NCBI GenBank assembly: GCA_914767715.1
Contig: OU612069.1
Coordinates: 22,813,387-22,877,386, forward strand
Direction of reading: 5' to 3'
Source: Membranipora membranacea
Taxonomy: Eukaryota; Bryozoa; Gymnolaemata; Cheilostomatida; Membraniporidae
DNA length: 64,000 nt
Shown: piece after piece, positions 1,576 to 28,726 of the stretch
How the letters are laid out: each line of letters starts with the position of its first letter
Numbering within the stretch: the stretch's first letter is position 1
The notes under the pieces: generated by a model
The model's database searches: none
Seen by the model: the letters and a program-made list of their open reading frames with translations, nothing else
Told to the model about the DNA's origin: nothing
Position numbers and translations under genes: made by a program

Positions 1576-4500
1576 CATATAAGATCTGGTATAGGCATAG
1601 TGGACAGCCTGAGCTTGACGCAGCACTGCCATTTCCAATGAAAGATGAAACGACTATCAGTGACCTTCAAAAGGATGTCGGAGATGAAACGATAACGCAC
1701 TTATCTGTGCATGGAGATATCCCTGATGAGCTGTGGAAGATGGCTCCTAACCTTGTTTCACTGAAATTATCTGGCGTCAACTCTGAAACAAGGTACATTC
1801 TCTCCCTTTTTTTCTCCAAATGTTCTTTCTTAATTAGAAATGTCACAAAATGTCAAACTGAATGACCTATCATCTTTTGTAGGATTCCATGGTTTGGAGA
1901 GCTAAGAACCTTGGATATATCAGGAAGTTATTCATTGGAACATGGTTTACCTGAAGACATATATCGCCTGAGTCATCTTAAAACATTGAAACTAAGGAGT
2001 TGTAAACTTGAATCTTTAGATGAAAGGTATTTTTATTTTTTCACACATAAAAGTTCATTTCAAAATAAGTCAAATCTAAGGCATGACACTGCTATTTGGA
2101 TTAATTCTTATTTAAGACATCTGAATCTATGGAGGCATAAACAATCCATTATCATTGTATTGTCTTGGTGTTTTTTGCAATTGTATTTCATTAATTTAAA
2201 GACTAGCTGACCTATGCAGTCTGCAGAAACTGGACTTATCAGGGAATGACTTTTCTAAAGAAGATTTTCCTCATGTCATATACAAGCTGATCAATCTAAA
2301 ACAGTTAAACCTGTTTGATTGTGGATTGACATCTCTGGATGAAAGGTCAGCATTTCACTATTATGCTTTGTCTGGTTTCCCCAAATCATGTTTGCATACA
2401 TCTCTATTTAAACACGTTGAATAATTTTATGCTACTTTACCCCATGGGAAAACACAAGTGTTCACACTTTGGCAGATATGTCAATGATAGAAAATAGACA
2501 AAACAACCTTTATGTTCCTCTTTGCTAGATAAATTTTCTCAAACCGTTGCAATCTAAGATAAATATCCAACCATAAACATAGTAACACCACAATCACCTG
2601 AATATTTAGACCAACAATGTTGCAGTTTAATAACTTTATGTAAATGCCCTTTTTTTGTCAACGGAAATCGAATAATACAAAATGTCACTACAGTAGTATG
2701 AAATACCAATTAGTGGCAAAGTGAGTACAACCTAACCCTCAGCAGAGAAAGAAACAGTATTGTTACATACGCGTATTTCTGACAAGATATATTTTCTTTG
2801 AAGACTTGGTGAACTATGTGACCTTGAGAGTTTGAACTTACAGCGCAATGACTTTTCTAAGACAGGATTACCTGATGTTCTTTTCGAGCTGTCCCATCTA
2901 AAAAAGTTACACTTGGGAGGATGTGGATTGACAACTCTGGATGAGAGGTGAAAGCACTATAAACATGCTTCGTTTGTTATCTAGGCTGATTCCCTAAATA
3001 ATGTATATTTTTGGAAGCACCAACATTGAATGTAACACAGTCCTGTTATTAGCCTGCGTAAAGGGACAAAAAATCTTGATTAAAATTAAATATTGAATAA
3101 AAATGGAAGTTGTACATCTCTGAGAAAAGATAAGACAACTGAAAGAGCTGACAAAATCAGATTTTGCCTGTAACTGGAACAGTTACCTTTTTTGTAACTG
3201 TTGCATCCACAATGATATTCACATAACACATGTCCCTGAACTAGAGCTTGTTCTTTTCTAAATGCCTATCGTTACAGTTATATTTCCAAATATGGTTGTG
3301 TTGTTATAACAGTGTAAAGATGGTAAATATGAGTCTGCTTATGTCTTTCAGATGACTTTTCTCTTCTCGGAAATGCGGAACTTTAATTTGTAATGTGTGT
3401 GAGCATGTTGTTATATGACACACAAACAACATATGTGTGTATTCTTTGAAGACTTGCTGACCTATGTGACCTTGAGAGTCTTACCTTATGGGGGAATGAC
3501 TTTTCTGTGACAGGATTACCTGATGTCATTTTCAAGCTGTCCTGTCTAAAAATGTTAGATCTGAGTGAATGTGGATTGACATCTCTGGATGAGAGGTGAG
3601 ATTTTTATTCATGAGCTTTATCTTTCTACACTATTAAACAGGTATTGATCAAGAAGAAACACTCTCAACGCAGAGAACAACACTTTCCTAACTAAGTTTT
3701 ATTTTTGTTATACAGAAGCCCTCTCATAACTAAGAATAACCTATTCAAACAGGTTGTAAGGGAAGAATACTTGAATACAAGGTTGCATGAGGTGTTGACC
3801 CTCATTAAAGGGGTGCTGAATATATTTTTTATTTATTCTATAATTGGAGGAAGTCGCACTGATCTGACAGCCAGGGAAGCTATGATAGCAGCTAAATACA
3901 CAAATATTCATAGTGTCTTACGCCTACCTATATAATGGACACAATTAGTAAAAAATTGAATAGGATTTAAAAAAAAAAAATATTATTATAAAAATAATGA
4001 GATGATGCGAATTTCCAGATAAAGCATAGATCCCATCTGAAAAAAACTATTGCTGGAAAAAATATGAATTATTTAATTTTATTATAATACATAATAACTG
4101 TACATTTAATTCAATAGCTAAATATATGTGATAAAGTTTTTTATGCAGAGTAAATTCAACTGCTCATTTCGAAACATCTCCCGGCCTGACGCTGAATTTC
4201 ATTGTGATGGATAAGATTTTCATATTAAAGTATATTGCTATTTAATTTAAATTATAATAGAAACAAGACATTCCGCATACGATCAAATTTTTGTATTACT
4301 AAATGTACAGGTAAAATGCTGTCAGCTTAAACAAACGAGTTTTCACAGGAAACGTCTCATCTCATCCTTGATGACTTAGATGAACTTTTGCATAAGTATG
4401 GTCTCATTTGTAAATGATCATGGGATATATCTCGAAATCAAATCACTGCACAAGTATCAAGGTGATTCTAGGGACGGATTTTCTTGCTTATCTGCAGCTC

Positions 4501-4967
4501 AACAGATAGTATTGGATTGTCTAAATTCCAAAATGAAGAAAGCAAAGTTCTCTGTGATGTTAATGAGTTTCTGTAAGGCCTATGATTGTGAAAACCTCAA
4601 TATATCATTCACAAAACTGGAAATTGCTGGTATCAGTGACACTGCTCCTGTTCCTCTGGACTCTTTCCTGAATGATCAATCTTGAAAAGACCCCTATCCC
4701 CTATACACATGACATTCCTAATATTATCACCCAAAAAAGGAAACTGTTTCTCAAAGGATGTCTGCTTACGATCATCTCCATACTAAAGTCTTTTGAAATC
4801 GAACTTTTGTTTATCTATCACAGACTGTCTTCACTGGTTATACTGGAGAACCTGGACGTATCACGCAATGACCTTACCTCCTCAGATATGCTGGAAGTGA
4901 TCTGCGAGCTGTCAAATCTGAAGGTGTTGAATATGCGAGAGTGTGGATTAGATAACTTAGACGACAG
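1576..4967 (+). other. LRR exon array of the fusion gene: one repeat per 144-bp exon
   Basis: After a 217-bp exon, five exons (1883-2026, 2202-2345, 2804-2947, 3452-3595, 4824-4967) are each exactly 144 bp. Each starts and ends in phase 2, splitting the Arg codon of a repeated DER or DDR. Each encodes one 48-residue module of the pattern LxxLCxLExLxLxxNDF followed by GLPDVIFxLSxLKxLxL and CGLTSLDE. The LRR continues into the start of the 9437 exon. Because all boundaries are in the same phase and of equal length, exons can be duplicated, lost or skipped without breaking the frame. The repeats at 2804 and 3452 are very alike, implying recent duplication. Confidence 0.9.
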
Positions 4968-7900
4968 GTTAGTTGCATGATAGAGCCTGGCCAGACGCTG
5001 CTTCACAGTTTAAACTTGATATGTACAAAAAGAGTAAAAATTTTCTTTCCTTCATATGCAGTTGAGCTCAGAAGGCCAAATTTCTAAAGTAAAATGCACA
5101 GAGAGTAATAAGGTCAGGAGAAAAAGCATATGGTGCATTCTTCTGCTGGGTGCTGCCATTCCTGCCTCATTTAACCCTGACCGATCGCCTTGGTGTCAGT
5201 GTACTGAGGGATAGTCAATAATTGGCTTAAATTCGTTACCTTAAACCAAATAGGTCAAGAGATGGGAATTCAGGGACTGTCCATTTACGCTACAATAGAA
5301 TGGCAACTTATCACCTGTTCTTATTGACTAGTACACCATTGCATGGTTGTTTACCTGCATGTTTAGTTAGCAGTTAGCAGGTTTCCAGTGCCAGCATTAT
5401 CAGCTGTGATATCGTAAACCGTTGTTCCACAATCGATTTTTCAGTACAAGGTCGAAAATCAATTCGAACATGAACGGCTTTAACCCTAAATGTTTGGGGG
5501 TCTTAACAGCATGCTGGTGGCTGGTAAATCATTCCATTCATGAGCAATGTACATAAAGAATGAAGTTTGACTTTGATGCCCCAGATCATGTGAGCAGCTA
5601 TTCTTTGTACTGCTTCTAAACATGTGGTAATGCAGTCAGTTATGGAAACCTTAGCAGCAGAGGCATACTCTCTACTCACTAGCTGCTTGAAGTCAGTACA
5701 TCACGTTGTGTGATGCCGATGATGGAGTTCGCTTTTGAAGTGATGTGTGTGTGCAATGTGATCCGTTAGTTGCTCTTGGTATGACTGTGTCATGTAATGT
5801 CAGTGGTTGAGTGCCCGGGCTGGTGCCTCCTTGAAAAAGCCATATGCTGATACCTTTATTCCGTGGAACTCCATGTCATAAGCAGTTTCCCAGCGGGTTA
5901 GTCTTCTGAGATCTTCCTGAAGACACAGGTGGTTGTCTGTGGTGTTGTATAATATTGTTATGTCTGCAAACAGTCGCACTACTGACTTGATGTTATCTAG
6001 CATGTCATTTATGTAGAAGAGGAACATGGTTGGCCTGATAACAGAACCTTGTCACAGGTGCTAGTTGTGACTCTTCTCCATCAATAACCAGTTTCTGCTG
6101 CGCGCCCTGTCAGGAAGTCCTCTAACCATGAGATGACTTAAAGTTCAACCCATAGCGAACTAGTTTCATCAGGAGTTTTTGATGGTTGACCATCTCAAAT
6201 GTCTTAGAAAAATCCAAGACACAGACTTCTATTTCCTTTCCACTGTCAAGGTTGTATGTGATGTCAGTGGTTAGCTCTGATAACTGGATTTCACAGCCCT
6301 GTCTGGCGCTGAACCTGTGCTGATTGCGGGATGGATTCGACGTAGTTCTGCAGCTCGCTGGTTAGTATATGTTCCATAAGCTTACTAGTTATACATGTAA
6401 GGCTAGCAGGCCTATAATACTCCGCCAGGTATTTCTCTCCTTCCTTGCCCATTGGACATACAGTAGCTAGTTTCCAGTCCTTTGGCACGATACCTTTGTC
6501 AAGTGAGTTCTGTAAGAGTGTTCGCCATCTCTTTCAGTATGTTTGGGCTTATACCATCAGACCCAACTGCGATGTTTGCTTTCAGTGTAGTCAATTGTCT
6601 GTGGACTCCCTTAATGTCAAATATTATTTCACTCATTTTTGCAAGCAATGCGAGCTCGCTGTAGTCAATGGGCTCAGAAAGCTTTGAAAATACATACACA
6701 AATTATTCATTCATGATATTAGTCCGGTTCCTTGCTGGGGGGATGATACAGCAGCTGAGCGTCTGTGCTTTACATACGTTCGAAACCTCTTATGGAGCTC
6801 GTCTTTTGTTTTCGTTTCATCAGTAAGCAGTCTGTGCACATAGGCAGCATGCTGCTTCCTCATCATCTTTTGTTCTGAATGTCTAATGCATTTTAGCGCA
6901 TTTCTAACTGGAGACTACCTTTTTCTTACATTGTTTGTATAGCTTGTTCTTTTTCTTTATGAGTGAGTGCAGCTGCTCGGATTGGAGTCCTTGCTCTTAG
7001 TGCAGCGCTAGTGCTACAAAGTCTGACATGGCATCTAGTATTGCCTCCTTGATTGACTTCCAGTGATCGTCAGTGTCAAGTTGGTATACTTGTTATCGAT
7101 ATTCTCGAACCAGGATGCTAGGTTTTGAGACATTCCTGGCCAATCAGGTTTGTTGTACAGCCATCTTTCTTGGTAATTGCCTCCGATATTCTGGAGTAAC
7201 AGATAACTCTAGCAAGAGGATTGAATGGTCATTTTTGTACACTGTTGATCTGTTCTTGGAGATTGGTGGCTACAAGGTCAGGTGTTTTCTGAGGTCGTGT
7301 TGGCTCTACCACAGATTGGATGAGATCAAAATGGTAGGTCACGGAAATCAGTACATTGGTATATGGGTATATGGGTATATGGGTATTGAGCTCCAGCTTT
7401 GAGTGATCAGTCGTTCCAATTAAAGCCTGGGAACATGAAATCTCCACCAATAACCAGTGCTCTTGGTTGTTTTGACATCAATGGATTGAGTGAACTCTTC
7501 AGTTGGGCAGTGAATACCTTGTCTGAAACATTCGGTCTGTAACACGCAGCAGTGAAAATATCTCTATGCCCTGTACATTTGATTTTCACCCATAATATTT
7601 CACTCTCGTCGTACTTGTGATGCTACAGTTAACAGCTATCATGAAGCCTCGGTGTCTTCCTACTTTTCTGACCCTCCTATATATGGTATAGGTATCACTC
7701 TCAGACTCGTTGGTGTTATTGGAGCTATAAAGCCAGGTCTCTGTTGTTATAATTACAGCGGCTTGTGTGGTATTGATCATGTTTATCCACGCTCATTTCT
7801 TGCCAACTGTTGATTGACAATGGAAGTTAATTATTCTGAGAAGCCTGCCGTATTTGCTAGGGGAAGGGCGTTTGCACTTTTGAGGTGAGGATTGGTGTTC

Positions 7901-10900
7901 AGGTGAATGTTGTTCATCTAAGGAATATGGACTGATCTGTGTTGAGCTCCCGCTGGCTGCATCACTGAAGCTGATGGTCTCATCAAACAGCATGGCTGAG
8001 GATGTTGTTGTGTTGTGTTGGCTGTTACATGTAGGACATGACCGTTGGAAACTGGAATGCCCACTTGGCATGCCAGATGGTACCATAGTATGACAGTGCT
8101 AGCACATGACCGACACTGCATACCAGTCTACAAATGTAGTTTACATGTACCACACAGGTACACAGTAGAACAACTGCTTTTGTAGTTGACATCCGTCATT
8201 TTGGAATTTGGATCTCAAGAGGTGAGTTTCTGCTTGGTTTGGTAGGTATTGGTGTTGAAGTTGATAAGACAGTTGTCTGGGGTGTAGATGGATGAGATGT
8301 CTAAAAGCTCTTCATATTAAACTCAAACTGGCGGGTAAAATATGTGCTCTTAAGACTTTTCGTTAGTTTTTAAAAATGGCTTGCCCCATAAAGGTCAAGG
8401 TTTTGGTTAGGCGTATCCAACTTTACATTCTGTGGCAATTCCTCTGCCAGGCAGATTCAGTAGTTGATATAACACAATACCTTGATCGAAAAAGGTGAGC
8501 ATTGAACATTTGAATTTATGATCGAATGTGACCGTAGATGTTGTCCTAATTGTCTTTGGGAGATCGTATCTTCCCTTTTGTTGACGTTAATATCCATTTG
8601 TTGGGAGGGGACAACTTCACAAGAAAGATTTATTGGTCATCATTGCTACTAACACTCATAGGCTCAGATCATAATTCCTTGCAATTAAATCTAAATGACA
8701 ATTAAATTTCTATAAACAAGCATGTACGTTGAAAATTAGTGATTATTCTGTTTTTGATTAAGTCCGGTGGCAGCCCTCTACTATCTTGTCACTTCCATTT
8801 ACAATTTTGGGTGCATAGGTTTTGACGATGGTAGTATCCCGTACACAATGTTGCACACTAGGCGGTTAAATACGCTGCTGGCAAAAGGGAATGTGTTCAA
8901 AAATGATGATATGGTTTCAAAACATCCAAATCTGAAAGGGCGTGACATAATTAGTGGATCTACAAGTTGCTTTGACGCTTTGAGACTTTGCAAGACAAAA
9001 CTGAAAAGAAAAGGATTGGTCTGCATATTTATCATCAAGGCGATAAATATCTGACAGTTTTGTTAAAACTGACACAGGCTTTGAAAAGAAGTATTATTCT
9101 GGCCACTTCAAGTTTATTTGTGTGCATTCATATACAGAGCTTATTTGAACACCCATCAAGCGCACAGGGAAGACCTATGCAAATGCTGTTTTCTCGAATT
9201 TGATGAAGCAGAAATTATTTGATGAATTTGCCAATCTTAAATGTTTTTAGGCTGGATCTAAGAAAGCATACAGCCTGTTATCAATTTGAGTCTGCCATCC
9301 ACATCGCTTAATCACCCTTTGCATGCCTTTTCCACTGTAAAATGACACAACGTAATCAAATTTTTTCTTAAATAGTTAACATAAATAAAAAATTTTTTTC
9401 TGTTATTAATTAATATTGGTAAACTCTCGTTTCTAGAGTAGAGAGTCTAAAGTATATCGAGGAACTCCATTTGGGAAATCAAAATTATTTCGACTCGAAT
9501 GTAGGAAGAAATGGATTCAAAAACATTTCTAATGTGTGCAAATTAAACAATTTGCGTTACTTGGATGTCACTTTTGTGGACTCATTAATGGAACTACCTT
9601 CTCAACTTTTCCATTTACCAAACTTGGAGCGTGTCGATTGTAAAGGCTGTGACGTGCTGAGGAAATCCCCAGAATCAGTGTGTTCTCAGGGTATAGAAGC
9701 AGTAAAACTGTATTTTGCCGACCTTGAAGATACTTCTTGGACCCACGTACCCATTGTTTCCGCTGCAGTGATTGGTAGTAGGATGGCTGGAAAAACGAGC
9801 ATGATAAGAACTCTGAAGCATCAAAAGCGCCACTTCACCTATCGTGACAGTTCTTCTCCCCGGGATGAGGCAACAAGGGTGTTTGAAGTGAGCGAGATAA
9901 CTGCCGGAGATTGTAGGCTCAGGATGTTTGACTTTGGTGGTGACACAGTGTACCATGTAACATACCAGCTGACAATCCGACCAAACTACATTCCAATCTT
10001 TGTTGTGAACATGGAACAGTTCGATCGTTTAGCAAAAGGCTCGACTGCAGAAGAAGCCACCAGACAGCTGTGTGTGGATTATATATCCCACCTTTATCTG
10101 GCATGTCCAAAACTAGGACGTCCAATCCTGCTTCTTACCCATGAGGACAAACTCAAGTCAGATATATTTGAGCAGAGAAAAGCAGAAATGCTGAGTGCCA
10201 TTGACAAACTTACAGCGCAAATGATTGAGGAAGAAGCCGCAGTGTCCAAAGGCCAAAGGACCATGATGAGCAAAATACTGCATTTGGCTAAACACAGGGA
10301 GGTTTTTGATCGGGTCGACATATTCTCTTTTGGCTCTGATTCCCAAGACTAGACTAACATACATCTACTGTTGTTGGCATTGTCATATAGATGCAAAGAA
10401 AACTCTGTATTCATTCCGTCTATTTGGGAGGGTATCGGGTGTTTCCTTGAACTGATGCAGAATTTGCCATTTATTCTAGTCTCAGATATCTTGAGAGAAT
10501 TTCCTAGTGAGCACAATGTTATTGCGTTACGATACATGCATAACGAAGGCCGGTTGTTATGGTTTGAGAAAGACGCAGCCCTTGCGAAAATAGTTTTCCA
10601 TAACATAGGCTCCATCACCAAGGTGATTGAGACTCTTTTCGATCACACAAGTGAGACGTCATGGAAAGAAAGGATCAATCGGTACAGACCCACTGAAATC
10701 AACGGCAAACTGATAACACCTGCTAAGTACACTGCCTTGGTTGCAGAGTTCTTGAAGACTGGAGTTCTTGATGAGGCGATATATGTCAGCCTTTTCAACA
10801 ATCTACAGTTTCCTACGGATGTTGCCACTACAGTTCTACAGGCATTTCATATGGTGTGCGGACCAATTTTGTCCAAACCCCGGGCAAAATACATCATCCC

Positions 10901-13900
10901 ATATCTAGCAAAAGAAGCTTTTGACTGGTCCTTTCTTCCATCTCCAAATCATCTGACTCTTAAAGTAGTCATCAGCTTTGTAGGCCTTTCGCCACCTTCA
11001 TATGTGTATCACTTGCTGGTCGTTGCGTTTCTCAACATCTACACTGATCCCCGCAATGTGATCAAGGCGTTTAGAGATGGTGCTGTCATCTCACAGGGAG
11101 GTATACAAACAGCTGTCACTCATAACTCCCAGGAGCGTTTTCTCTCTATCATATCTTATGCACCAGCCGCAAAACTGGATGTTTCATGGAGAAAAATTAT
11201 CAACACCACCGACACAATACTGAGAAAGCTGAAATCAATATGGATAGCATCCCATCCGAGTTGCAGATTCTACTGTGCTCACTGTCTTCACACTAAAGAA
11301 GAAGAGCCCGACTGCCAGGTAGATCCTGACTGGTATGTGCTGCCAAGGACACCAGATACAGACTCACCACTATCTGAGCGCTTGACAGATTTCACAGGGA
11401 TCGACTCAGTACACTGCTGTAATATAAGATCTGTACACGATCTGGCTCAAGTTCCATCACCACTGAAATACCCATGTAAGTATTTTCAACATGATGTGTC
11501 TGTCCAATAATCCGAATTCTAGATGTATAATTAGTAGCGTCCTCACATAATGATGATTGAATGAATCATTCTAGTCATATTTTTCTCAGCTCACCAACTT
11601 TATTATTGTATTATGTATCCTGAGAATCCTCCTCTCTACCATCATAGCTCTTATTATTTTGTTAACACTTGGCAGGAAATTCATGCAGCAGACAAGCGTA
11701 ATGATTAGCTTATTTTCTATAGTGATCTTCTTGTCAACAGTCTGCATGCCAATTTTTTTCCAGGTTTCAGTCTGAATGAGGATGAAAAAGCCATCATCCA
11801 AGCATATATCAGAACACTCACACCTGGAATTCCCTCCTCTGCCACTCAAGTGTCAAGCGGTAAACCCTAAAAATGTTATATACATATCTCCTTCATCTCA
11901 TTAGAAGATGTGATGTGATGATATCTGATTGAATTTTTATATTATATCAGCTTCTAGGAAGTTCATAGTTAATTTTTGGCTTGGATGATGGGGATGTTTG
12001 ATACCTCCCAATTGAGGCATGTACACAAGGGGATTTTCACATTCACAAAGAATCATAGGAAAACATAATTCATTTTCATCTTATGTCTGCAGCTGTTAGA
12101 CCAGTTGTGGATAACACAGCAGTAGATGAGATCATACTCCAGATGAAGACACAGCCATCGTTCATAAATCAAACACCTGATATCACTACTAGCCCAGTCG
12201 GCAATCTAGCAACAAGACCTCAGGTAGGCGTGACCGTTAATCTCCTAAATTGTTGTTCAGTCAAGGCAGCCTTGGGTGACAGTTATGTAAAAAGAAAACT
12301 GTAACACAGAATACTATCTGTTTCTGCGATGGGAAAGTACGTTGAATGCTTTTGTTGACATATCAAAAAAGTATTTATTTATAAATTGATCTGAATATTT
12401 GACTGATTTATTCTAGTTCACAATGACAGAGACAAGGGGAAGAGCTCTTCTTATATCCAACAAGTTTCAGCAGCCTAATGGTTCATACAGAGAGGGTTCG
12501 GAACATGACTATAGAAATATGAAGGCAGTACTAGTTAGAGCTGGTTTTGTCACAACAGGAAGTCATCAAAACTATGATGCTCAGGTGATTATTGAACAGA
12601 GTATGTTTCGGCTCTCTTATAAAATAGTCTCATCTATATAATGCATCATTCATCTTTTTTCTATGGTCATAACACTTTGTTTGTTGCTGACAGGAAATTG
12701 TAGAGGCGATTCACCAAGAAACTCAACTTATAGATGAGACAACAGGAGAGTCTGTTCATGCAAACCTTGGTATGTTTGTGCTCATGCTGACAAGTCATGG
12801 TACTGAGAATGGTATAGCTGGAGTAGATGGTAAACTTGTGAAGCTAACAGACATTTTTGAGTTGCTTTCTGCTAGGAACTTTCCATCTATGCAGGGGAAA
12901 CCCAAGCTTATTGTCATTCAAGCATGTGCTGGAGGTAAGCCCACATGTATTACAAGGAGTTTTGTTATGACTATTATTTTTTCCTGACGCATTAGTATGT
13001 TGCTAATAATATAAGTACACTTAATAAAACTTAACTCAAACCTGGATGGTAACAATTAGCATGAGAATAAGTATTGCCATGATGAAAGATTATTCGGTCA
13101 ATCTATGTACAATGGTTTTCAATGATGTGATGTCAACACAAATCTGATATGCGAATACACCCCTTTGAAAGCAGCATGCTCCTTATCAATATTCCAGGTA
13201 AACGAGAGATGCTGCTAGATGATACAGATAATGCAGAACCGCCTGAGAACATCACATTGACTTCAGCCTACAAAAACATTAAGCTGGGTCAACCTGCCTC
13301 ACAAAATTCTGCCACTGGCACAGAGAGAGGAGACAAAACCAAGAAAGTACCTCATCAGGATATCCCGCAGGTGGACAGTGTCAACGAGAAGATTTCTTGT
13401 GCGGATCTTCTGGTTATGCAATCTAGTTTTGACAGTAAGTGTCTCTTTGCTCTCCAGCCAACAAGATATTTTCATGTATCTCTGTCATTTACTGGATGAG
13501 AGCTTGAACTAATAAATACCTAATGATGCATCATACTGGGAAAAGTTATGAAAATTCCATTCGGAATTACTATTTATCAACTCAACTATATTTTTCTCAG
13601 CGTTTGCGTCCCCGAGAAGTAGACTGATAGGATCACCGTTCATAAGAGGATTAGTTATCGCTATCTACAAATGGGCCTCTGTTCATCATATAGAGACCAT
13701 AGCAGAACTGGTAAGTATGACAATATATAAAAATTGCTATTGTTGAAATCTTGCAATATAATTTAGTTCATGAAAACTTGGGTGTACCAGTGTGTCCGGT
13801 TTGCTTGAATAGTTTTTTTTAAATTCAAAGTTGAAACTACTTACATTATCACAACTTGATTCAACTATTACAATATCTGTATACTTCCCATTTTATAATG

Positions 13901-14705
13901 AAATGAGAATGTATGTAATGCAATATATATACATTAATATGTATTTATATAATTATATACCTACTGATTAGGCAAGTCTGAAGATATACAGTCATTCATT
14001 TTTGATTATGCCTTAAGGTAAGAGAAGCTGTTAGTAGATACAGTGTTGAGAGGACTGAGGAGTTGGTGAGTGCAAACCAAGGTCAGAGGGGTTGCTATGT
14101 GGCACAGATGCCAAAAGTCACGTGTACGTTCACAGATCTGAGAAAGCTCTATATCAGACCTGGTGATAACATGAGAACTCCAGGGGAACATCTACAGTCC
14201 ATATTACGGCCTAAACACCCTGATCACCCAGATACAACTCTAGAGTGGTTGACTGGTAAGTCATGAATACTTGGTTGTATTAATGTTGTTATTGTTGTGT
14301 TGTCTGATTAAACTAAGATCTTTCCTAAAAATCATAGATCATAGATAGTCAGTAGTGAGTCAGTTTTCTCTTCAATACTTCTCACTGTTGACCTGTATCA
14401 CCAATTTGTGTTAGTAGGTTTTTGATGATTGTAAAACAATGTTATAATATACAATGTATTGCAGTGATTTTTAACCCATTTACCAGGCTATGAAAGCAAT
14501 ACACTATTATTTTTCCTCACAAATTTTCCTCTTTTTCTCAAATACTTATTGTAACCAATGGAGATTACTCTCAATTTCGATTCATATAAAATATTAGATG
14601 GGCTTGAATATCTATGTTTCAGATGGTGTCACCACAGAACTGGTTGATGGTAATGCAAAGAATCAAAGATACGTCAGATGGAAGATTACAAAAATGAATT
14701 CTTAG
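1576..14705 (+). CDS. LRR-Roc-COR-caspase fusion protein (5'-incomplete, one in-frame TAG)
   Basis: Exons by eye: 1576-1792, 1883-2026, 2202-2345, 2804-2947, 3452-3595, 4824-4967, 9437-11475, 11764-11859, 12093-12223, 12417-12584, 12694-12934, 13198-13434, 13601-13710, 14018-14255, 14623-14705. All introns are GT-AG and every junction keeps phase. The summed length gives 1426 codons including the terminal TAG at 14703. Domains in order: N-terminal segment, five to six LRRs, Roc GTPase, COR, a short linker, then caspase p20 and p10 halves and a short tail. Roco proteins are LRR-coupled GTPases that dimerise through COR; caspases are Asp-specific cysteine proteases of cell death and inflammation. 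The exon 12223/12417 junction joining COR linker to caspase is phase 0 and open on both sides, which supports one gene, although ATG at 12423 could start a separate caspase. One TAG at 10350-10352 interrupts the frame between Roc and COR. The 5' end is not seen: the first exon opens with a splice acceptor and no clear start codon. A receptor-protease role is inference. Confidence 0.85.
4345..4800 (+). mobile_element. LINE reverse-transcriptase remnant in an intron of the fusion gene
   Basis: An open stretch from about 4380 to 4685 reads like the RT palm region: LSAAQQIVLDCLNSK, then a degenerate SFCKAYDCEN block standing where LDLSKAFDTVDH normally occurs, then KLEIAGIS. Stops follow at once. 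It is on the same strand as the host gene and lies wholly within the intron before the 4824 exon. The fragment covers the part of RT that is missing from the 1-1400 remnant, but there is no evidence that both come from the same insertion. Confidence 0.65.
5500..8250 (-). mobile_element. Decayed CR1/L2-like LINE with PHD-like finger, endonuclease and RT
   Basis: Reading the minus strand from about 8230 downward there is: a Cys-rich stretch (STVYLCGTCKLH, then CRSCASTVILWYHLAC) resembling the PHD-type finger of CR1-group LINEs; apurinic-endonuclease-like blocks (TETWLYSSNN; ACYRPN; VIGGDFMFPGFNW); and RT blocks (ANIAVGSDGISPNILKE; PKDWKLATVCP; YYRPASLTCI; LDFSKTFEMVNH; a degenerate FADI in place of YADD). 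Frames change several times and the active-site motif is broken, so it is dead. It is inserted antisense in the 4.5-kb intron separating the last LRR exon from the Roc exon. Family assignment to CR1/L2 is by domain order, not by search. Confidence 0.8.
8250..9436. other. Intron remainder; unassigned open stretch
   Basis: Between the LINE and the Roc exon there is an open reading stretch on the plus strand at about 8767-9054 (contains SKHPNLKGRD). I do not recognise it. It has no convincing splice sites matching the phase-2 introns around it. It is more likely repeat debris than a host exon. Otherwise I see only AT-rich intron sequence. Confidence 0.4.
9437..11475 (+). other. Roc GTPase and COR domain exon of the fusion gene
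   Basis: This single 2,039-bp exon carries the last LRR segment, then Roc. The P-loop is IGSRMAGKTSM (about 9768-9810), the G3 motif is DFGGD (about 9930-9945), and the G4 motif is the Roco-type THED (about 10137-10150). COR starts near FIPSIWEGIGCFLELM and continues through LPFILVSDILREFPSE, LRYMHNEGRLLWF and the following helical region to about 10920. After that come roughly 180 residues without a recognised fold, containing CRFYCAHCLHT, and the donor at 11476. The codon at 10350-10352 is TAG. The frame upstream and downstream is the same and both sides match Roc-COR, so the lesion is a point change rather than an indel. No frame-preserving intron of credible size removes it. Confidence 0.88.
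12417..14705 (+). other. Caspase (peptidase C14) domain of the fusion gene
   Basis: Exons 12417-12584, 12694-12934 and 13198-13434 encode the p20 half and linker; 13601-13710, 14018-14255 and 14623-14705 encode p10 and the tail. Visible landmarks: GRALLISNKF (first strand), SYREGSEHDYRNM with the Arg expected in the S1 pocket, TSHGTENG with the catalytic His, and KPKLIVIQACAGG with the catalytic Cys. The usual QACRG is QACAGG here. The p10 has SPRSRLIGSPFIRG, which keeps the Arg and the GS-F signature, and ends with MPKVTCTFTDLRKLY. The inter-subunit segment is about 60 residues and has LLDDTDNAE, an Asp-rich stretch that could be a maturation site (inference). By residues seen, the fold looks catalytically competent. 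Confidence 0.9.
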
Positions 14706-15895
14706 CTATGGTCTGAATCTACCTTATTCTGTCTCAAACAGCAGAAAAGAATGTTGTAGCATTGTTAAAGATTACTCATCGAACAACACCTGTTTTAGTG
14801 AGGTAGTTCCGTATGATTAACTCAGGTGAGATTTTCATGTTGAAAACTTTCAAAACTCTTCTGGGCATGTCCTACCGATGGTGGAAAGTGTGCCTCATTT
14901 AAAAGAACTAACTCTTGTATCCTGCGTGATGATGTCACTTAGCACAAGAAGTAAGGGACACGTCACTTTGTGATTGGTTGAACCTTCTTTTTTTTTGCAT
15001 TGCAATGTGAATAATACATGCATTAGCTTTGCCAGTTCCTCTTCCATATATTTGAAGGTTAAGGAATATAACATGTCAGCTTCTGATTTTTTACCATATC
15101 ATGATATATCAAAACATTTTTGAATTTTTGCATGCCAATTTCTGGGCACTGTTCACAGGGAATGCTCAACCCTCATAATACGATGTATGTCAATATATTT
15201 TTTAATTAGCTCCCACCATTCATTATATCAATGTCACCTAGCCTTTTTCTGCCATCGCATCATTTTTAACATTCAAAATATAACAAGAACACAACATTTC
15301 TGCCGTACCCCCAACTTGTCTTATCATTGCGCTAGATTGAATTTTCAATTTTTGATTATAGATTGTCTTGAACTATGTTTGTTACATAAAGCGTATCAAC
15401 TCTTGCTTTCAACCTGTTGAGAATTGAGTGGTTCCTCTTGAAACTGCTGCAAAATGTATCTTTCCTTTGATGGTCTGTGCTAACTCACTGAAACTGTTCC
15501 AAATCAGTGCTTATATACTTAGTTTGAGGCTGCTATTTTGTAGCACATCTTATTCTCCATATTTTATTCTATCATTCTATCGATTTCCAGCTTTAGAATC
15601 TAAATTTTGAGGAAGTTTGAACTAGCAAAAGCGGGTCTGTAACACTAGAAACAACAACCATATAAGTCATAAGAAATGGTGTGAGAAAATCTAATCATTT
15701 GGTACCTATGATGTTCCAAATAAAGTGCAACATGACAACTTTGTCTGATTTAGACGATATTTGTATAGTGCTGGGTACAATTGTTGGATATCCCACCCGC
15801 TAGAGGCCGAATATCAGAGCAGAAAAGGCGCTCCTCTGTTACTTTTGATGATCATGTGTAGTTTGTCATAAAAGCTCCCTGATATCAAGCTTGAT
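14706..15895. other. Intergenic stretch after the fusion gene
   Basis: No gene is visible. Short open stretches near 15187-15610 lack splice logic, compositional bias or recognisable motifs. An AATAAA at about 15719 is a possible but distant poly(A) signal for the upstream gene. Confidence 0.5.
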
Positions 15896-16148
15896 TTGTG
15901 GGTTAAAATGTGGGTTAAAATCGCAAGTTTTTTGTCTCTGTCCAAAGACTGAGAAATACTGGCGCCTTAAGGGCGCGGCCGTCATTTCTGGCGCCAAGCT
16001 GCTCTCAGTTAGTAAGTAGGTTGGAGCACACCGGGGGCGTCAATTGAGCCCAGTAGTCAGTAGACTTCAGCGGGATTTGAACATGAGGCCTCCAACGCAT
16101 GCGCGTTAGAAGACAGACGCTCTAACCAACTGAGCTACCTCCTACTCC
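15896..16148 (-). mobile_element. tRNA-derived SINE (family with CAATTGACGCCCC core)
   Basis: On the minus strand it begins GGAGGTAGCTCAGTTGGTTA (A box), followed by a tRNA-like body and a B-box-like TGTTCAAATCCCG, then the core CAATTGACGCCCCCGGTG and TTGGCGCC, and a tail of short TTTTAACCCAC-type repeats near 15900. The head is clearly tRNA-like, but the long non-tRNA body and tail rule out a functional tRNA gene. Related copies are at about 37426-37650 (+), 28405-28520 (+, 5'-truncated) and 50180-50333 (-). Confidence 0.88.
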
Positions 16149-16399
16149 ATTTATCAAAGATTAAAATGAAAACAACAATTAAAGGAATATTTAATTTCCC
16201 CAATTGAATGAGACTTTCAAGGAGATCAAACATATATAGTGATCTATCAAGAGACGGTCAGGGACCAAGTCAGCCAAACTCCAGCTGATCTTATCTCACT
16301 TCCTCATCTCCTCATCACCCTTCCTCAAAGGTTTGGTGTCCAGGTATTTTTATATCTGCTTCCCTGCAAAAAACCTTACTCATGATCAACTTTGATTTA

Positions 16400-16690
16400 T
16401 TTGAAGTTTTATGATTGCTATAGATTCGGAAGTTTCTATTCATCAAATTGATTATGTTTGTCAAGAAGCTACAGTTGACCAAATCCGCCAAGTTTTCCCA
16501 CATAATATACCCAGTACTGGTAATTATGCCAGTTTTGGTCTGATCAAAATCCCCACCTCTATGTTGTATGAGTCAATTTCTAAATTAAACGGCATGTTTG
16601 GTCTGCCCAAAACCGCCACATTAGCTGCACATCCTACTTGAATTCTCTTGAGTGGCGGTTTTTTTTCGACAAAAACCGCCAATAAGGAAT
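16400..16690 (+). other. Unrecognised ORF fragment followed by a GC-rich hairpin
   Basis: An open stretch of 76 codons ending at 16641 (contains QEATVDQIRQVFPHNIP) is followed at 16653-16681 by an 11-bp inverted repeat, TGGCGGTTTTT and AAAAACCGCCA, with a 7-nt loop. A third CAAAACCGCCA copy lies inside the ORF at about 16608. The stretch sits directly beside the truncated 5' edge of the caspase copy. I do not recognise the protein. It may be part of a transposable element whose insertion cut the caspase copy. Confidence 0.4.
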
Positions 16691-16764
16691 TCTTATTTCA
16701 GACAGGTGAGCACAACTCCCACAATAAATAGACTCATCATGTGATCTATACTGTTCGCAATTTC

Positions 16765-19700
16765 CTCAAGACCGGAAATCACTGAACTGATTGATCTGCT
16801 CTCTCCTAAAAACTTTCCATCCATGAAAGGAAAGCCAAAGATTGTTAACATCCAGGCCTGTTCTGGTGGTAAGTAAACAATTGAAACTTGAAAAAATTCA
16901 GAAAGGGTGCACTTATTAAATCTAAAACTTAGCAGCTTGGTGTTAACTTGAAGTAAGGAGTACTCCCTGCTGTAGCAAGTGCTAAATCAACAATTCAGGT
17001 TTAGGTCAATTGAGAAAAGAGACACAATTTCAATTCAATGTAATAATGTCAAAACAGATTGTTGTCCCAAACCCTCTCAGCGGGTTGACTATCTCTCGAT
17101 CCATTATTTTCTACTTGTTTAAGTTTAGCCAAAGAAGTCCGCTTATGTTCTACCCTGTTGATCCTTAATATTTTTCATCTCTGGATTAATCCTGCCTAAT
17201 TGAGCTAAGGCTACTACCAAAAATCATCAGTGTATGTATTAATCTGTTGCAGGCAAAAGGGAGACTTAGCTCAATGACAATCCATCATCGGTGTCCGCCT
17301 CCGCGTCAGGGGCAGACAATGTCAATCCGACGGACATTCAAAGGATCCGGAAGAGATGGATGATGATCAGCACTTTGTGCCCCAGGATATATCCACAGCA
17401 GATTTGATTATCATGCAGTCTAGTTTTGAATGAAGTGCAGTGTTAGTCTGTCCGGCTAATCATGATAATCATGTCCTACTACTCTTGCTGTTGGATATTA
17501 TACCAGCTCTCATAATTTAACTCTGTACACACACAAGTGTAGGTTATGGCTTGGTTGACAAACTATTGAACTCATTGAACTTGGTAAACTCAGAGACTAC
17601 TTCTCAAGACATTTATCTCAGAAGTGTAGCCTAATTGGTAAATAATTCGCACACCTGATGGTCAAAACCAGGGTATTGGATTAATATACTAGGTGAAATA
17701 AGGATGTTTCTAGTAGTATAAAATATAGGCGTCATCACTTAGTTGCTATGTATTTAACTCTTTGATTTTGACTGATCTGATCTGTTTCTGCAAATAATTT
17801 GCCAACAAGATGACAATGCTTATTTGAGTTTGAAGCCTCTTTTTGCTTACAGAGCTTCCAGAGCACACCATTTCTCTTGAGATGGCAATAGTACTGTCAG
17901 CTCATCATAAAGCCAACTAGCTCTTATTTAAAATTATCTCATAATAACTCGCTTTACCATTTATTTTAGCTCTCTCTTCTCCGAGGCGGCGCAGTGAGGG
18001 TTCGGTATTCATCAGAGCACTGGTTACGGTTTTCGATAAATTTGCTCGTCTCTTCCACGTAGAAGAGCTCGCACCAATTGTGAGTTAAAAAATATCAATA
18101 TTTTCAACCCCTGCTATAGATCTTCTATTGAACACGCAAATTAAAATGTTCGTTTTGTATTTTAATCAGACTAGCCAATCAGCTTGTCTCAAGGATATAA
18201 ATATAATAATATGTTTTAAGTTTGAGAGTAGCCTATCTGCACCACCATTGTTTGGGGGGGGGGAGTTGTCAAGATAGGCTACAGTTGGAACTACGGGTAG
18301 AATTTGTCTAGCAAACTTATATTTGATATTATTTGAAATAAGGTATCATTCTGGTATCATTTGCTTTTTTGATGTGCCAACCAGTTACCAAAAAGTTTAG
18401 TTTGCCTAAGAGGAATAATCCCTTCAACAGATAAATCTATTGTATATAACTTTCTATCAGATAAGAGAAGCAGTGGCAATGATTGGAGTTCAGAGAACTG
18501 ACTCGCTTTTAAGAAGCCGTACACGGAGACAAAATACCGAGACAGCGTATGTCGCCTCGATGCCACAGACGAGATGCACATTCATCGGCAAGAAGCTATA
18601 TCTGCAGCCTGGAGCTGTTGTTGAGACACAGAGTCAGGCAGACCGGGACTCTCTGACAAACCCTGTACTGCCAACTCCAACTGCTACCAAGATAGAGCAG
18701 AAGCCTGGTGAGTTATTAAAATTTAGGCCTGATGAGGATGACATTGCTATCCATGTGTACATTAATAACCTTTTTCTGACTACAACTTGCTGTCCTCGCA
18801 AATATACATGTTGTTCATCATACAGCATCATATGAAGTATAATATCCATCTCCCACAATGTTTTCCTTTGTTACTATTAATGAAGCAATCTTTTTTTAAG
18901 TTTTGTTAGTGCAGGGAGAATGGTTAGTGGTTCTCAGTTTTTGCTAGGGATTCATAATATCTTAGGATAACTATTAGTATAATAATGAAGAAGGCAGGGC
19001 TACAAAGATGTATTAATATGACTCCCTGGATTTTCTCGAATATTTATATACTGATCAAAGCCTACTAGCGACCACTGCTGAGTTGAGTTACATAACTTAA
19101 CTACGCTGCATAATACATTGACACAGGGCATACCGGTTTTTATGTTAGTTTATGTATGTCAGAGTGGGCAACTCCAAAGTAATATGTGATAGCTATTAGA
19201 GTTTGCCTATACTACACCAGTCAGTTGTGCATCAAGCCAGGGGCGTATATTCTAAAAATTTTCACTCACTGACTTTTTAGGGATGAGCATAATGATTGGG
19301 CGCAGCCCAATCCACACGCCGTAGGAGTGGCGGGGAGGGTGTGGGAGGGGTGCTTAAGCGCCCTCCCACCACGGAAATTTTTGCATATCGGTAGCAAAAT
19401 AGTGCAAGCAGAGAGGTATTTCAATAGCTCACTGAGCTGTTGGGTACTTTCAGAAAACAACTCAATAGCAGTAGAAGATTACGGTAAAAATGCTCCAGTT
19501 ATAAAGCACCAATTTGAAAAAAAACTGACCTCGATGGGATTCGAACCCGCTACAATCTGATTAACAGTGTTTATAAAGCAGACGCTCTACACACTGAGCT
19601 ATTCAGACACTCACGGAAATCCGTGGGCCGTGAGTGCTAATATACGCCACTGCATCAAGCTGCTAGGATTCTTAATGAAGCTAGGAGAAGGTTATCCTGA

Positions 19701-19867
19701 CTCTTGATTATTTTCCAGATGCTTATTGTATTAATTTCTTGGCAGCGATTATTTTTCTTGACATATTATTACTTTCCTGTTTTCTAGATACTATAAGAAC
19801 AGAGAGAAATGGTCGTGAGCTCAGGGAGACTAGATATTATAATTGGGCTGTTACTCCAAACTCCTAA
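16765..19867 (+). pseudogene. Partial, broken tandem copy of the caspase end of the fusion gene
   Basis: Pieces match the upstream caspase exon by exon: about 16772-16869 (PKNFPSMKGKPKIV then NIQACSGG, catalytic Cys present); about 17254-17432 (GKRET, ending with DLIIMQSSFE); about 17971-18080 (SPRRRSEGSVFIRALVTVF, p10 core); about 18461-18713 (ASMPQTRCTFIGKKLYLQPG); and about 19788-19867, with a tail ending NWAVTPNS and a stop. The N-terminal part of p20, including the His exon start, and all of LRR-Roc-COR are missing. The second piece has an in-frame TAG just after GKRET and a frame change before EEMDDDQHFVPQ, so it cannot be translated as is. The p10 exons stay open with good splice sites. 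Origin by partial tandem duplication is the simplest reading. Confidence 0.8.
19238..19652. mobile_element. hAT-type MITE carrying a tRNA-like sequence
   Basis: Ends are CAGGGGCGTATATT at 19238 and its near inverse, AATATACGCCACTG-like (TAATATACGCCACTG), ending at 19652. The element is flanked by an 8-bp direct repeat CATCAAGC at 19230-19237 and 19653-19660, the target-site length of hAT transposons. Inside, on the minus strand, is a tRNA-like head with TAGCTCAGTGTGTAGAGCG and GGTTCGAATCCC (about 19528-19612). The acceptor-stem halves do not pair, so it is not a functional tRNA gene. A short inner palindrome, CACGGAAATCCGTG, lies at about 19613-19626. It is inserted in the last intron of the broken caspase copy. 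Confidence 0.8.
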
Positions 19868-26525: not shown

Positions 26526-28726
26526 TCATATCTTTATTGAGATGGAAATAAAATTTGCGTTGTCCGGGATGTCAAAGAACATGGGCTGAGAATATTCTGT
26601 TGATAAAGATATCATACCATATCCAGCTTCTTGTAGAACGGATGGTGGTGTATCTTGTAGGATTATTTCTCTTTGTATATTGTAAGCTATAGCCAGCGCC
26701 AGCCTCCTTCTATCGCTCTGATAAGCATCACTTCTGTGTAGAACATTGGAGTGAAAGATAATCACATCACCTTTCTTCAAAACCACCTGCTTAATTCCTC
26801 CAAAATGATATAAATACACATCGTTTACTTAAAGTAGCTGCCGGAGACCAATGTATCCTGCAGGTTAGCAACAGTTCAGGGTTTGGACTGCAACATTAAC
26901 CTACATCTCAGTACTCTGACTATTTAAACATACCTACTGCTCAGTACTCAGACTAGTAATATTTATACCTGCCTCTCATTATTCAGACTATTCACCTAAA
27001 CCTACCCAGTCTCTCTTTATAGTGCTCAACTCTCTGTAGATCAGCCTGGATCTGAGCATCATACTTGATGTGATCTACTCTCCCTGATTTGTGTGATTTC
27101 GGAATTATCTGTAAAAATTAAAGATAAGTAGGACAGGTCCTATCCTAGGATGGTAGCAAAACTATCATCAATGCTGGATTCAGAACAAAGGTTTCTCTTG
27201 ACACTAAAAGAACACTAATATGATTCGAGAGGGATTCGAGGCAATTCAAACCCACCTTTGAATATTGTAACTGGAAGACCACTGGCTCAAACAACTCAAA
27301 TCATACACAGAGAAGAAGAGATGATGTTTGAACAAACACTCGATAATAACATCTGTTAGCAGCACAGCGAAGTTGACATGTATGAGAACCGTGAGCGTCA
27401 GAAGAAAACTGCAATCAACACAAGATCAGAAAAGATTTCATCCCATGAAGATTTCACATGTACATGATTTCATCTCATTCTACGCTTCTTTATTTTAAAT
27501 AAGGAGTTGTCCTCTACACAAAACAGTGCTGATAACTCCAGATTTTTGTCCCACTATTTAGTCACTGCGTGTAATTTACTGACCTTTATACAGCCGTTCC
27601 CCATATCAATATCAGTGCAGTGCACATATCATCAGGAACCAGTGTACCATTATAATACCAGTATCTGTAATCAGCAAACATTATAGACAGGGAATTCAAG
27701 AGCGGCTGAACTGAGAGATCATTACGAAGGGAACCAGGTGACTTTTACACCTCCTAGGGAGGAATCAAAATTGACGTTTATTGTTTGAATTATGAAATTT
27801 AGTCAAATGATAATAACTTGATGGTAGTATCTTCTGTTTCCAATAGTGGAGACTTTCAGCCTCATCACAGCTCCGGGCATCAACTAGTTTGAGCCCTGGA
27901 ACCCTTGCCCACTCGGACGGCCCCTCCATCGAGTTCTTTATTGATGTAATCTGTTGTTTCTGATTTATGCAATACTCACCCAATAGCTTGACACCACAGT
28001 ATGCTTTGATTGACTGCTGTGGTGCTATTACTATTAACACTGATATCGGATACCCCTCCTACCACAAACCCTCAATAAAGCTTAGTAGCTCAGGCTAACA
28101 TACCCATAATCCTGGTGCCATATAAATGAACCTCCAGTCTTTGGAGGCTTCTCCAGAAACTTTGCGTGATAGTGGTAAATTTCTTCCCCAAGGATCTGTA
28201 AAATGAAAGTATTAATTTTGTGGGTATTAATCATGAGAATATATTTTAAGTGCTGGTACCGTCTTAGTAATGTAACTGGTGAAGTTTATTAAATTGATAA
28301 AATATAATCTGGGTCTTCCAATAATCTTTTTTACCTAGGAACATGAGTACCGATAAAAAAAACAGAATTAAATATTCTCTAGTGCGCAAATTTTCTTTCC
28401 TCAGTTGTTCCAGGTGTGCGCCGACCTGCCTACAAACTGAGAGCAACTTGGCGCTGAATATGGCGCCGTGCCCTTAAGCAACCTTCATTCTTCAGTCTTG
28501 AGACAGAGGCAGAACTTGCGAAGAAACACATTACTGCACAAATGCCTATGAAACATTTGTGACACCGAGAAATAACTCAAACACATTGTTCTTTCAAAGC
28601 TGAACATTTTTGCTTACCCACTAACCTGTTGGATGGTGCCAGCTAACTTCTGACTTCTAGAGAATAGCCCTGTGGCATCATTCGATGCATCGTCCCACAA
28701 AGCAAACCATATTTTATCACCTTTAT
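26526..28726 (-). pseudogene. PhyH-family Fe(II)/2-oxoglutarate dioxygenase, frame-broken
   Basis: Minus-strand exons: 28726-28626 (DKGDKIWFALWDD; DATGLFSRSQKLAGTIQQ), 28195-28104 ([24 protein letters not shown], with the iron-binding HxD), 27664-27584 (YWYYNGTLVPDDMC), 27108-27006 (IIPKSHKSGRVDH) and 26797-26526 (KKGDVIIFHSNVLHRSD with the distal His, then RRRLALAIAYN with the 2-oxoglutarate Arg). These are the core motifs of phytanoyl-CoA-dioxygenase-like enzymes, which hydroxylate substrates using Fe(II) and 2-oxoglutarate. All splice phases agree except that the 27664-27584 exon is 81 nt where 1 + 3n is required, and residues between DDMC and GNGCIK appear deleted. No start exon is visible. 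A decayed gene is most likely; an assembly error is possible. Confidence 0.75.
28405..28520 (+). mobile_element. tRNA-SINE, 5'-truncated copy
   Basis: It matches only the body of the SINE family: GGTGTGCGCCGACCTGCCT, ACTGAGAGCAACTTGGCGC, GTGCCCTTAAG and TCAGTCTTGAGACAGAGGCA. The tRNA head is absent. It lies in the intron between the first two PhyH exons. Confidence 0.8.

Follow-up and report, generated by a model that had tools for sequence, protein, structure and literature searches.

Roco proteins with C-terminal effectors

Bacterial proteins that combine leucine-rich repeats (LRRs), an AP-GTPase (Roc) and a COR domain carry at least 24 types of C-terminal domains, including TIR, caspase and trypsin, according to Kaur et al. 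2021 (PMC8195603). Here, we describe a locus with a comparable predicted layout in the bryozoan Membranipora membranacea, located on the forward strand at positions 1576-14705 of a 64,000-nucleotide stretch of contig OU612069.1 (22,813,387 to 22,877,386), referred to below as the window. We interpret it as one animal gene whose product unites LRR, Roc, COR, linker and caspase regions in one polypeptide and whose assembled copy bears a young disabling TAG codon, and give this reading an even chance. The locus shares with the bacterial LRR-AP-GTPase-COR-effector proteins the order LRR, Roc, COR, effector, with the reservation that here the COR match is weak and the single chain is deduced from a gene model, whereas those proteins are bacterial and usually encoded without introns.

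Several groups of animal genes resemble the locus in part. LRRK1/LRRK2, DAPK1 and MFHAS1 have LRRs (except DAPK1), Roc and COR, but their COR domain is followed by a kinase, a death domain or nothing, and no caspase is described in the available sections of the source (PMC6337361). In Trichoplax, the Roco genes number at least 17 and have CARD, death and TIR domains as partners (PMC4104024), and Roc/COR or Ras-like domains combined with TIR are reported from actiniarians (PMC5094078) and Aplysia (PMC9334734); in these genes, as in the Membranipora locus, an animal Roc-COR module is joined to death or immunity domains, but the partners named there are adaptors or TIR rather than a protease. Amphioxus possesses LRRs-caspase and TNFR-caspase hybrid genes, in which an animal receptor part is likewise joined directly to a caspase with the QACXG motif, whereas Roc and COR are not mentioned in the portion of text at hand, where the word 'roc' occurs 0 times (PMC2575513). 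An animal LRR-Roc-COR-caspase protein was not found among the papers listed in searches of an open-access library, which leaves out most subscription papers and for several queries listed only the best of many hits. Our best reading is that the layout is known in kind from bacteria; the original prediction that no standard animal family is known to end in a caspase is uncontradicted by the searched open-access literature on animals, but the plan as such had been described in bacteria (PMC8195603).

Gene structure and the leucine-rich repeat exons

The gene model comprises 15 exons separated by 14 GT-AG introns and joined in one reading frame, giving 1425 residues (1426 codons including the terminal stop). 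The joined frame contains only two stops, both TAG: the terminal one at 14703-14705 and one in its interior at 10350-10352. Thus the 15 phase-consistent exons of the original prediction are recovered, including the preserved phase across the 12223/12417 junction, but the internal TAG had been overlooked. The first methionine of the model is encoded at 1638, in frame within exon 1 (1576-1792), which covers the pre-LRR region and the first LRR; further 5' exons may lie upstream of the window start.

Exons 2-6 (1883-2026, 2202-2345, 2804-2947, 3452-3595 and 4824-4967) are LRR exons of exactly 144 nucleotides (nt) each, all in phase 2, with codons split after the second base. A Pfam scan of the joined 1425-residue model identified the repeats as LRR_14 (E=6.7e-24). 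Exons 4 and 5 differ by 0.19 nonsynonymous (dN) and 0.19 synonymous (dS) substitutions per site over 47 codons, which points to a duplication of fairly recent date in which no constraint on the protein is visible. In the Roco genes of brown algae, the LRR exons measure 72 bp, are in phase 2 and undergo shuffling (PMC11378527). The Membranipora exons agree with them in phase and, at 2 x 72 nt, in length, whereas the algal genes are reported in the available part of that paper as LRR-Roc-COR alone, without an effector, and the word 'caspase' is absent from that text.

The Roc and COR domains

Exon 7 (9437-11475; 2039 bases) encodes the last LRRs, a pre-Roc helix, Roc, a probable COR-A and the remainder of the presumed COR region. 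The Roc motifs are the P-loop GSRMAGKTS at 9774, DFGGD at 9930 and THED at 10137. Pfam recognizes Roc in the whole protein with E=1.2e-4, and in the first part of exon 7 with E=1.4e-5 and 25.7 bits, just below the cut-off of 27 bits. The pre-Roc helix and P-loop match the C. tepidum Roco structure 3dpu (E=2.9e-4). A tblastn search with exon 7 retrieved six plasmid records, four of them annotated as COR domain-containing protein, one as small GTP-binding protein and one as hypothetical protein; aligned by hhalign with the six plasmid proteins, exon 7 residues 50-403 match at 97.6% (E=3.8e-12), from Roc into COR-A, with the region of the TAG codon gapped.

The six plasmid proteins served as queries in a scan of bacterial genomes; of at least 522 confirmed relatives, the top 80 were retained as a wider sample, mostly cyanobacterial and uneven in composition. 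Together with the plasmid loci, 83 of 86 loci contained an open reading frame (ORF) with the motif WD[FLM]GGQE, and 80 of these 83 ORFs were used to build a bacterial Roco profile. The LRR-Roc part of the Membranipora model preceding the TAG matches this profile at 98.4% (E=5.2e-15). By these profile matches and the motifs listed above, the Roc G domain is a member of the Roco family and a predicted GTPase.

Evidence for the COR domain is thinner. Analyzed as a separate piece, COR-A matches Pfam with E=0.065, and it is not among the families listed in the Pfam scan of the whole 1425-residue protein. The alignment of the part following the TAG with bacterial Roco proteins is collinear, with IPSIW (10413) corresponding to LPKTW and YMHNEGRLLWFEKD (10533) to YLHDLGVCLHFQDD, and for this reason we consider COR-A likely to be present. 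COR-B was not seen in the Pfam scans or in the bacterial Roco alignments of exon 7.

Among other domains, the 1425-residue model, which starts at 1576, gave no Pfam match to a protein kinase or a death domain, and the 14 Pfam families listed for the full-length model at E<=0.5 do not include NACHT/NB-ARC. PADLOC assigned no family to four pieces, the NCBIfam matches of two pieces were confined to look-alikes of LRRs and small GTPases that scored far below cut-off, and no relative turned up when viral contigs were scanned with the Roc part or with exon 11 of the caspase. An AlphaFold2 prediction of exon 7 from the single sequence had a mean predicted local distance difference test score (pLDDT) of 35.5 and was not used.

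The caspase domain and its bacterial counterparts

Downstream of exon 7, two exons encode the linker between COR and caspase, exon 8 (11764-11859) and exon 9 (12093-12223), the latter with aspartate residues at 12110 and 12125 that are possible candidates for self-cleavage sites. The caspase large subunit starts in exon 10 (12417-12584), which contains an ATG at 12423, and continues in exon 11 (12694-12934), with the catalytic histidine at 12796 and the catalytic cysteine at 12925 within QACAGG. Exon 12 (13198-13434) encodes the inter-subunit linker and the start of the small subunit, exon 13 (13601-13710) its following part with GSPFIRG at 13630, exon 14 (14018-14255) its end and the start of a C-terminal tail, and exon 15 (14623-14705) the rest of the tail and the TAG stop.

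In the joined model, Peptidase_C14 matches with 105 bits (E=6.1e-30) over profile positions 1-229 of 233. Among solved structures, the large subunit matches caspase-2 chains best (E=4e-14); taken by itself, the small subunit gives a weak match, and only to an ancestral caspase-6 (E=0.042). The catalytic histidine and cysteine, as well as arginines at 12489 (exon 10) and 13615 (exon 13), align with solved caspases; we take the two arginines to be those of the pocket that receives the substrate aspartate. The domain is complete with both subunits, in agreement with the full caspase proposed originally, and its sequence features predict an aspartate-directed protease. All six motifs on which the original prediction relied (GSRMAGKTS, DFGGD, THED, TSHG, QACAGG and GSPFIRG) are found where they had been placed. 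Roc and Peptidase_C14 follow the LRRs in the expected order, whereas the COR match is weak.

To place this domain among bacterial effectors, we scanned the tails of the bacterial Roco ORFs at E<=1e-4. The scan covered the 68 of 83 ORFs with at least 100 residues beyond a point 430 residues past the motif, the 15 shorter ones being dropped. TIR_2 was found in 24 tails, TIR in 21, CHAT in 8, EAD11 in 2, and EAD1, Peptidase_C25 and CAP12-PCTIR_TIR in one each, where a tail may match several families; Peptidase_C14 occurred in none of the 68. Bacterial Roco proteins thus place TIR and CHAT effectors at the position taken by the caspase in Membranipora, whereas the caspase-clan tails of the scanned sample are CHAT (PF12770) rather than Peptidase_C14. 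The cyanobacterial loci L025, L028, L029, L053, L055, L058 and L080 have LRR-Roc-COR ORFs that continue into a CHAT-like caspase-clan tail, which is confirmed by Pfam in L025 and L080.

One gene or two

The link between the Roco and the caspase parts depends on exons 8 and 9. With splice and codon models from whose training these two exons were left out, we looked for the in-frame chain that best connects the donor of exon 7 with the acceptor of exon 10. The search returned exactly 11764-11859 and 12093-12223 with 40.9 bits. Among 150 dinucleotide shuffles, two-exon chains as good were found in none and chains of any kind in one; none of 56 other stretches of the window, some of which may overlap real exons, did as well. 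In codon usage, the frame of the model was the best of six for both exons (7.1 against 6.1 for the next frame in exon 8; 8.6 against -0.2 in exon 9). The codon score is negative for exon 7 once this exon, the bulk of the training set, is left out of training, and our use of the score is limited to comparing frames. The exon 7 donor, CAT/GTAAGT, is good and in phase with exons 8-10, and the poly(A) signals AATAAA and ATTAAA are absent from 9542-13023. With the bridge of exons 8 and 9, the in-phase donor and the missing poly(A) signals, the proposed single polypeptide is the best fit to the locus.

Directly downstream of the gene lies a second, decayed caspase copy (16775-19867, forward strand). 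Its recognizable pieces correspond to the 3' half of exon 11 (16775-16873), exon 12 (up to about 17434, with a stop and a frameshift), exon 13 (17975-18082), exon 14 (18461-18706) and exon 15 (up to 19867). The equivalents of exon 10, of the half of exon 11 with the catalytic-histidine SHG motif and of the Roco part are absent, and nothing in 14706-16790 matched the missing 5' part better than E=4.2. By eye, the last exons are alike, with RYVRWKITKMNS in the gene and RYYNWAVTPNS in the decayed copy, each followed by a stop. Since dS between the two caspase copies is saturated in places (2.5-2.6 or not computable), dN/dS was not used.

A number of observations weigh against a single functional chain. 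As assembled, the full-length product cannot be made because of the internal TAG. The tblastn matches of the six plasmid records are confined to query residues 15-215, i.e., to the LRR-Roc part, and the part following the TAG matches the bacterial Roco profile at only 2.6% (E=0.018), with two of 100 shuffles scoring equally. The best of the window controls reached 40.8 bits, so the bridge stands moderately above chance and no more. Of the 14 acceptors, that of exon 10 is the weakest, and the ATG at 12423 follows it six bases into the exon. Finally, the downstream remnant is caspase-only, which keeps alive the alternative of two adjacent genes.

Under this alternative, an LRR-Roc-COR gene would end at about 11475-11510 or within exons 8-9, and the caspase would be a gene of its own, starting from the ATG at 12423. 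The position of this ATG immediately past the weakest acceptor and the near-equal window controls are consistent with such a boundary, and the remnant would fit a tandem array of caspases beside a Roco gene. The remnant may, however, be a partial 3' duplication of a fused gene, and the two-gene arrangement has to contend with an exon 7 donor that is good and in phase, with the recovery of exons 8 and 9 as the top chain of a blind search, and with the absence of both poly(A) signals between the two parts. We regard two genes as rather unlikely. A single gene is the most likely arrangement, favored over two by roughly a factor of two.

The internal stop codon

The internal TAG corresponds to residue 617 and falls between Roc and COR in exon 7. 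Downstream of it, exon 7 remains open for 374 codons, suggesting that the stop is either young or an error. On our best reading it marks a null allele, a loss that occurred recently, or an error in the sequence such as mis-assembly. An altered genetic code with TAG as a sense codon was considered and rejected, as the same frame terminates in TAG at 14703.

Alternatively, the TAG might be removed by a short intron missing from the model, leaving the gene intact with a modified Roc/COR border. We found 458 frame-keeping GT/GC-AG pairs that would remove it and compared the best 25. The top pair (807 nt, 12.1 bits) would take out a large part of Roc and COR. Among these 25, the best pair shorter than 150 nt, 10302-10430, scores 8.5 bits, whereas the modelled introns range from 4.8 to 18.8 bits (sums of leave-one-out donor and acceptor scores); being within the range of the weakest of them, it leaves room for a hidden intron without pointing to one. 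The presence of a 90-nt intron elsewhere in the gene and the T-richness of 10302-10390 (38% against 27% for the exon) are compatible with a hidden intron, but the higher-scoring pairs among the 25 remove far more of Roc and COR, and by eye the stretch over the TAG would pass for the strand and helix with which a G domain ends.

Comparisons with bacterial profiles are of limited help here. Aligned globally with a profile of bacterial Roc domains, the stretch that spans the TAG scores -9.4, with 296 of 300 shuffles as high or higher, and two versions without the stretch score -1.9 and -0.9. On its face this result is in line with splicing, but the comparison is biased by gap costs, and the shortened versions correspond to introns that would end at 10391, where there is no AG, so they are no real splice products; nor does it favor read-through. 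With the bacterial Roco profile, the read-through version obtained 53.0 bits and the shortened ones 54.0 and 53.4, within the 27.8-60.1 spanned by 20 deletion controls, and these scores do not separate read-through from splicing. Overall, a hidden intron appears highly improbable.

It is also conceivable that the locus is dead, i.e., that the TAG is fixed and the species makes no functional full-length product, as for the neighboring copy. The in-frame stop in Roc-COR would agree with this, and so would the state of the adjoining caspase copy, with a stop and a frameshift in its exon 12 equivalent and its 5' parts missing. The gene itself, however, shows a single disablement in 1425 codons, 14 introns with GT-AG ends, and the 374 codons that stay open past the stop. 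We consider a dead locus improbable, and prefer the reading of an otherwise intact gene with a recent or artifactual stop.

Other features of the window

Upstream of the gene, a reverse-transcriptase fragment is present at 133-738 on the forward strand (RVT_1, E=1.4e-4, below cut-off). Together with the introns and the animal-type caspase, this fragment marks the DNA as animal. Intron 6 harbors ORFs on the reverse strand (about 5800-8100) that by eye resemble long interspersed nuclear elements (LINEs); one ORF of this intron, 6291-6533, had no Pfam match. Two long related-looking ORFs on the reverse strand, 33332-34429 (366 aa) and 39120-40091 (324 aa), look repeat-propeller-like by eye and match no Pfam family at E 0.01. 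An exon-like ORF at 26529-26828 on the reverse strand encodes the end of a phytanoyl-CoA dioxygenase domain (PhyH, E=3.5e-6). On the forward strand, an exon-like ORF at 60755-61063 contains tetratricopeptide repeats (TPR_12, E=3.2e-8), and another at 62395-62709 has weak tetratricopeptide matches only. Two regions, about 16060-16150 and 19520-19620, are reminiscent by eye of tRNA-derived repeats; ARAGORN found no tRNA and Rfam nothing at gathering scores, including in these regions.

A proposed mechanism and its implications

What the sequence shows is how the gene is laid out, which domains it matches, that the catalytic residues are in place, and the TAG. We infer that the gene is expressed as a single transcript, that the protein is controlled by nucleotide and acts through pairing, and that its role lies in cell death or immunity. 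An intact protein would be a sensor with a built-in executioner. The LRRs would hold the chain shut until a ligand binds, whereupon GTP-loaded Roc would swing the LRRs away and rearrange COR. The caspase domains, held at the COR end until then, would be freed and pair. Caspases are activated by pairing. The paired domains might then cut their own inter-subunit linker, and perhaps also the linker between COR and caspase, after which cleavage behind aspartate residues would begin.

In a study of the C. tepidum Roco protein (PMC11052575), binding of GTP made the LRR rotate away from Roc-COR and the dimer loosen, and the protein was monomeric with GTP. The first of these movements resembles the one proposed here; the second sits ill, in its direction of coupling, with a caspase activated by pairing, and has to be added to the points that weigh against a single functional chain.

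Tentatively, then, the locus may represent a self-contained animal death receptor that combines an LRR sensor made of exon cassettes and a Roc-COR switch with a catalytically complete caspase, a counterpart of the bacterial LRR-Roc-COR-caspase proteins that was either built independently or kept since ancient times, with the TAG being a matter of one allele or of an error. If this is true, such a protein would dispense with the adaptor step between animal sensors and caspases. The bacterial plan of a sensor, a GTPase switch and a caspase-fold effector would then also exist in an animal, equipped with a true caspase. It would also offer a simple protease readout for a question posed by LRRK2, namely how the nucleotide state of Roc-COR governs a tethered enzyme.

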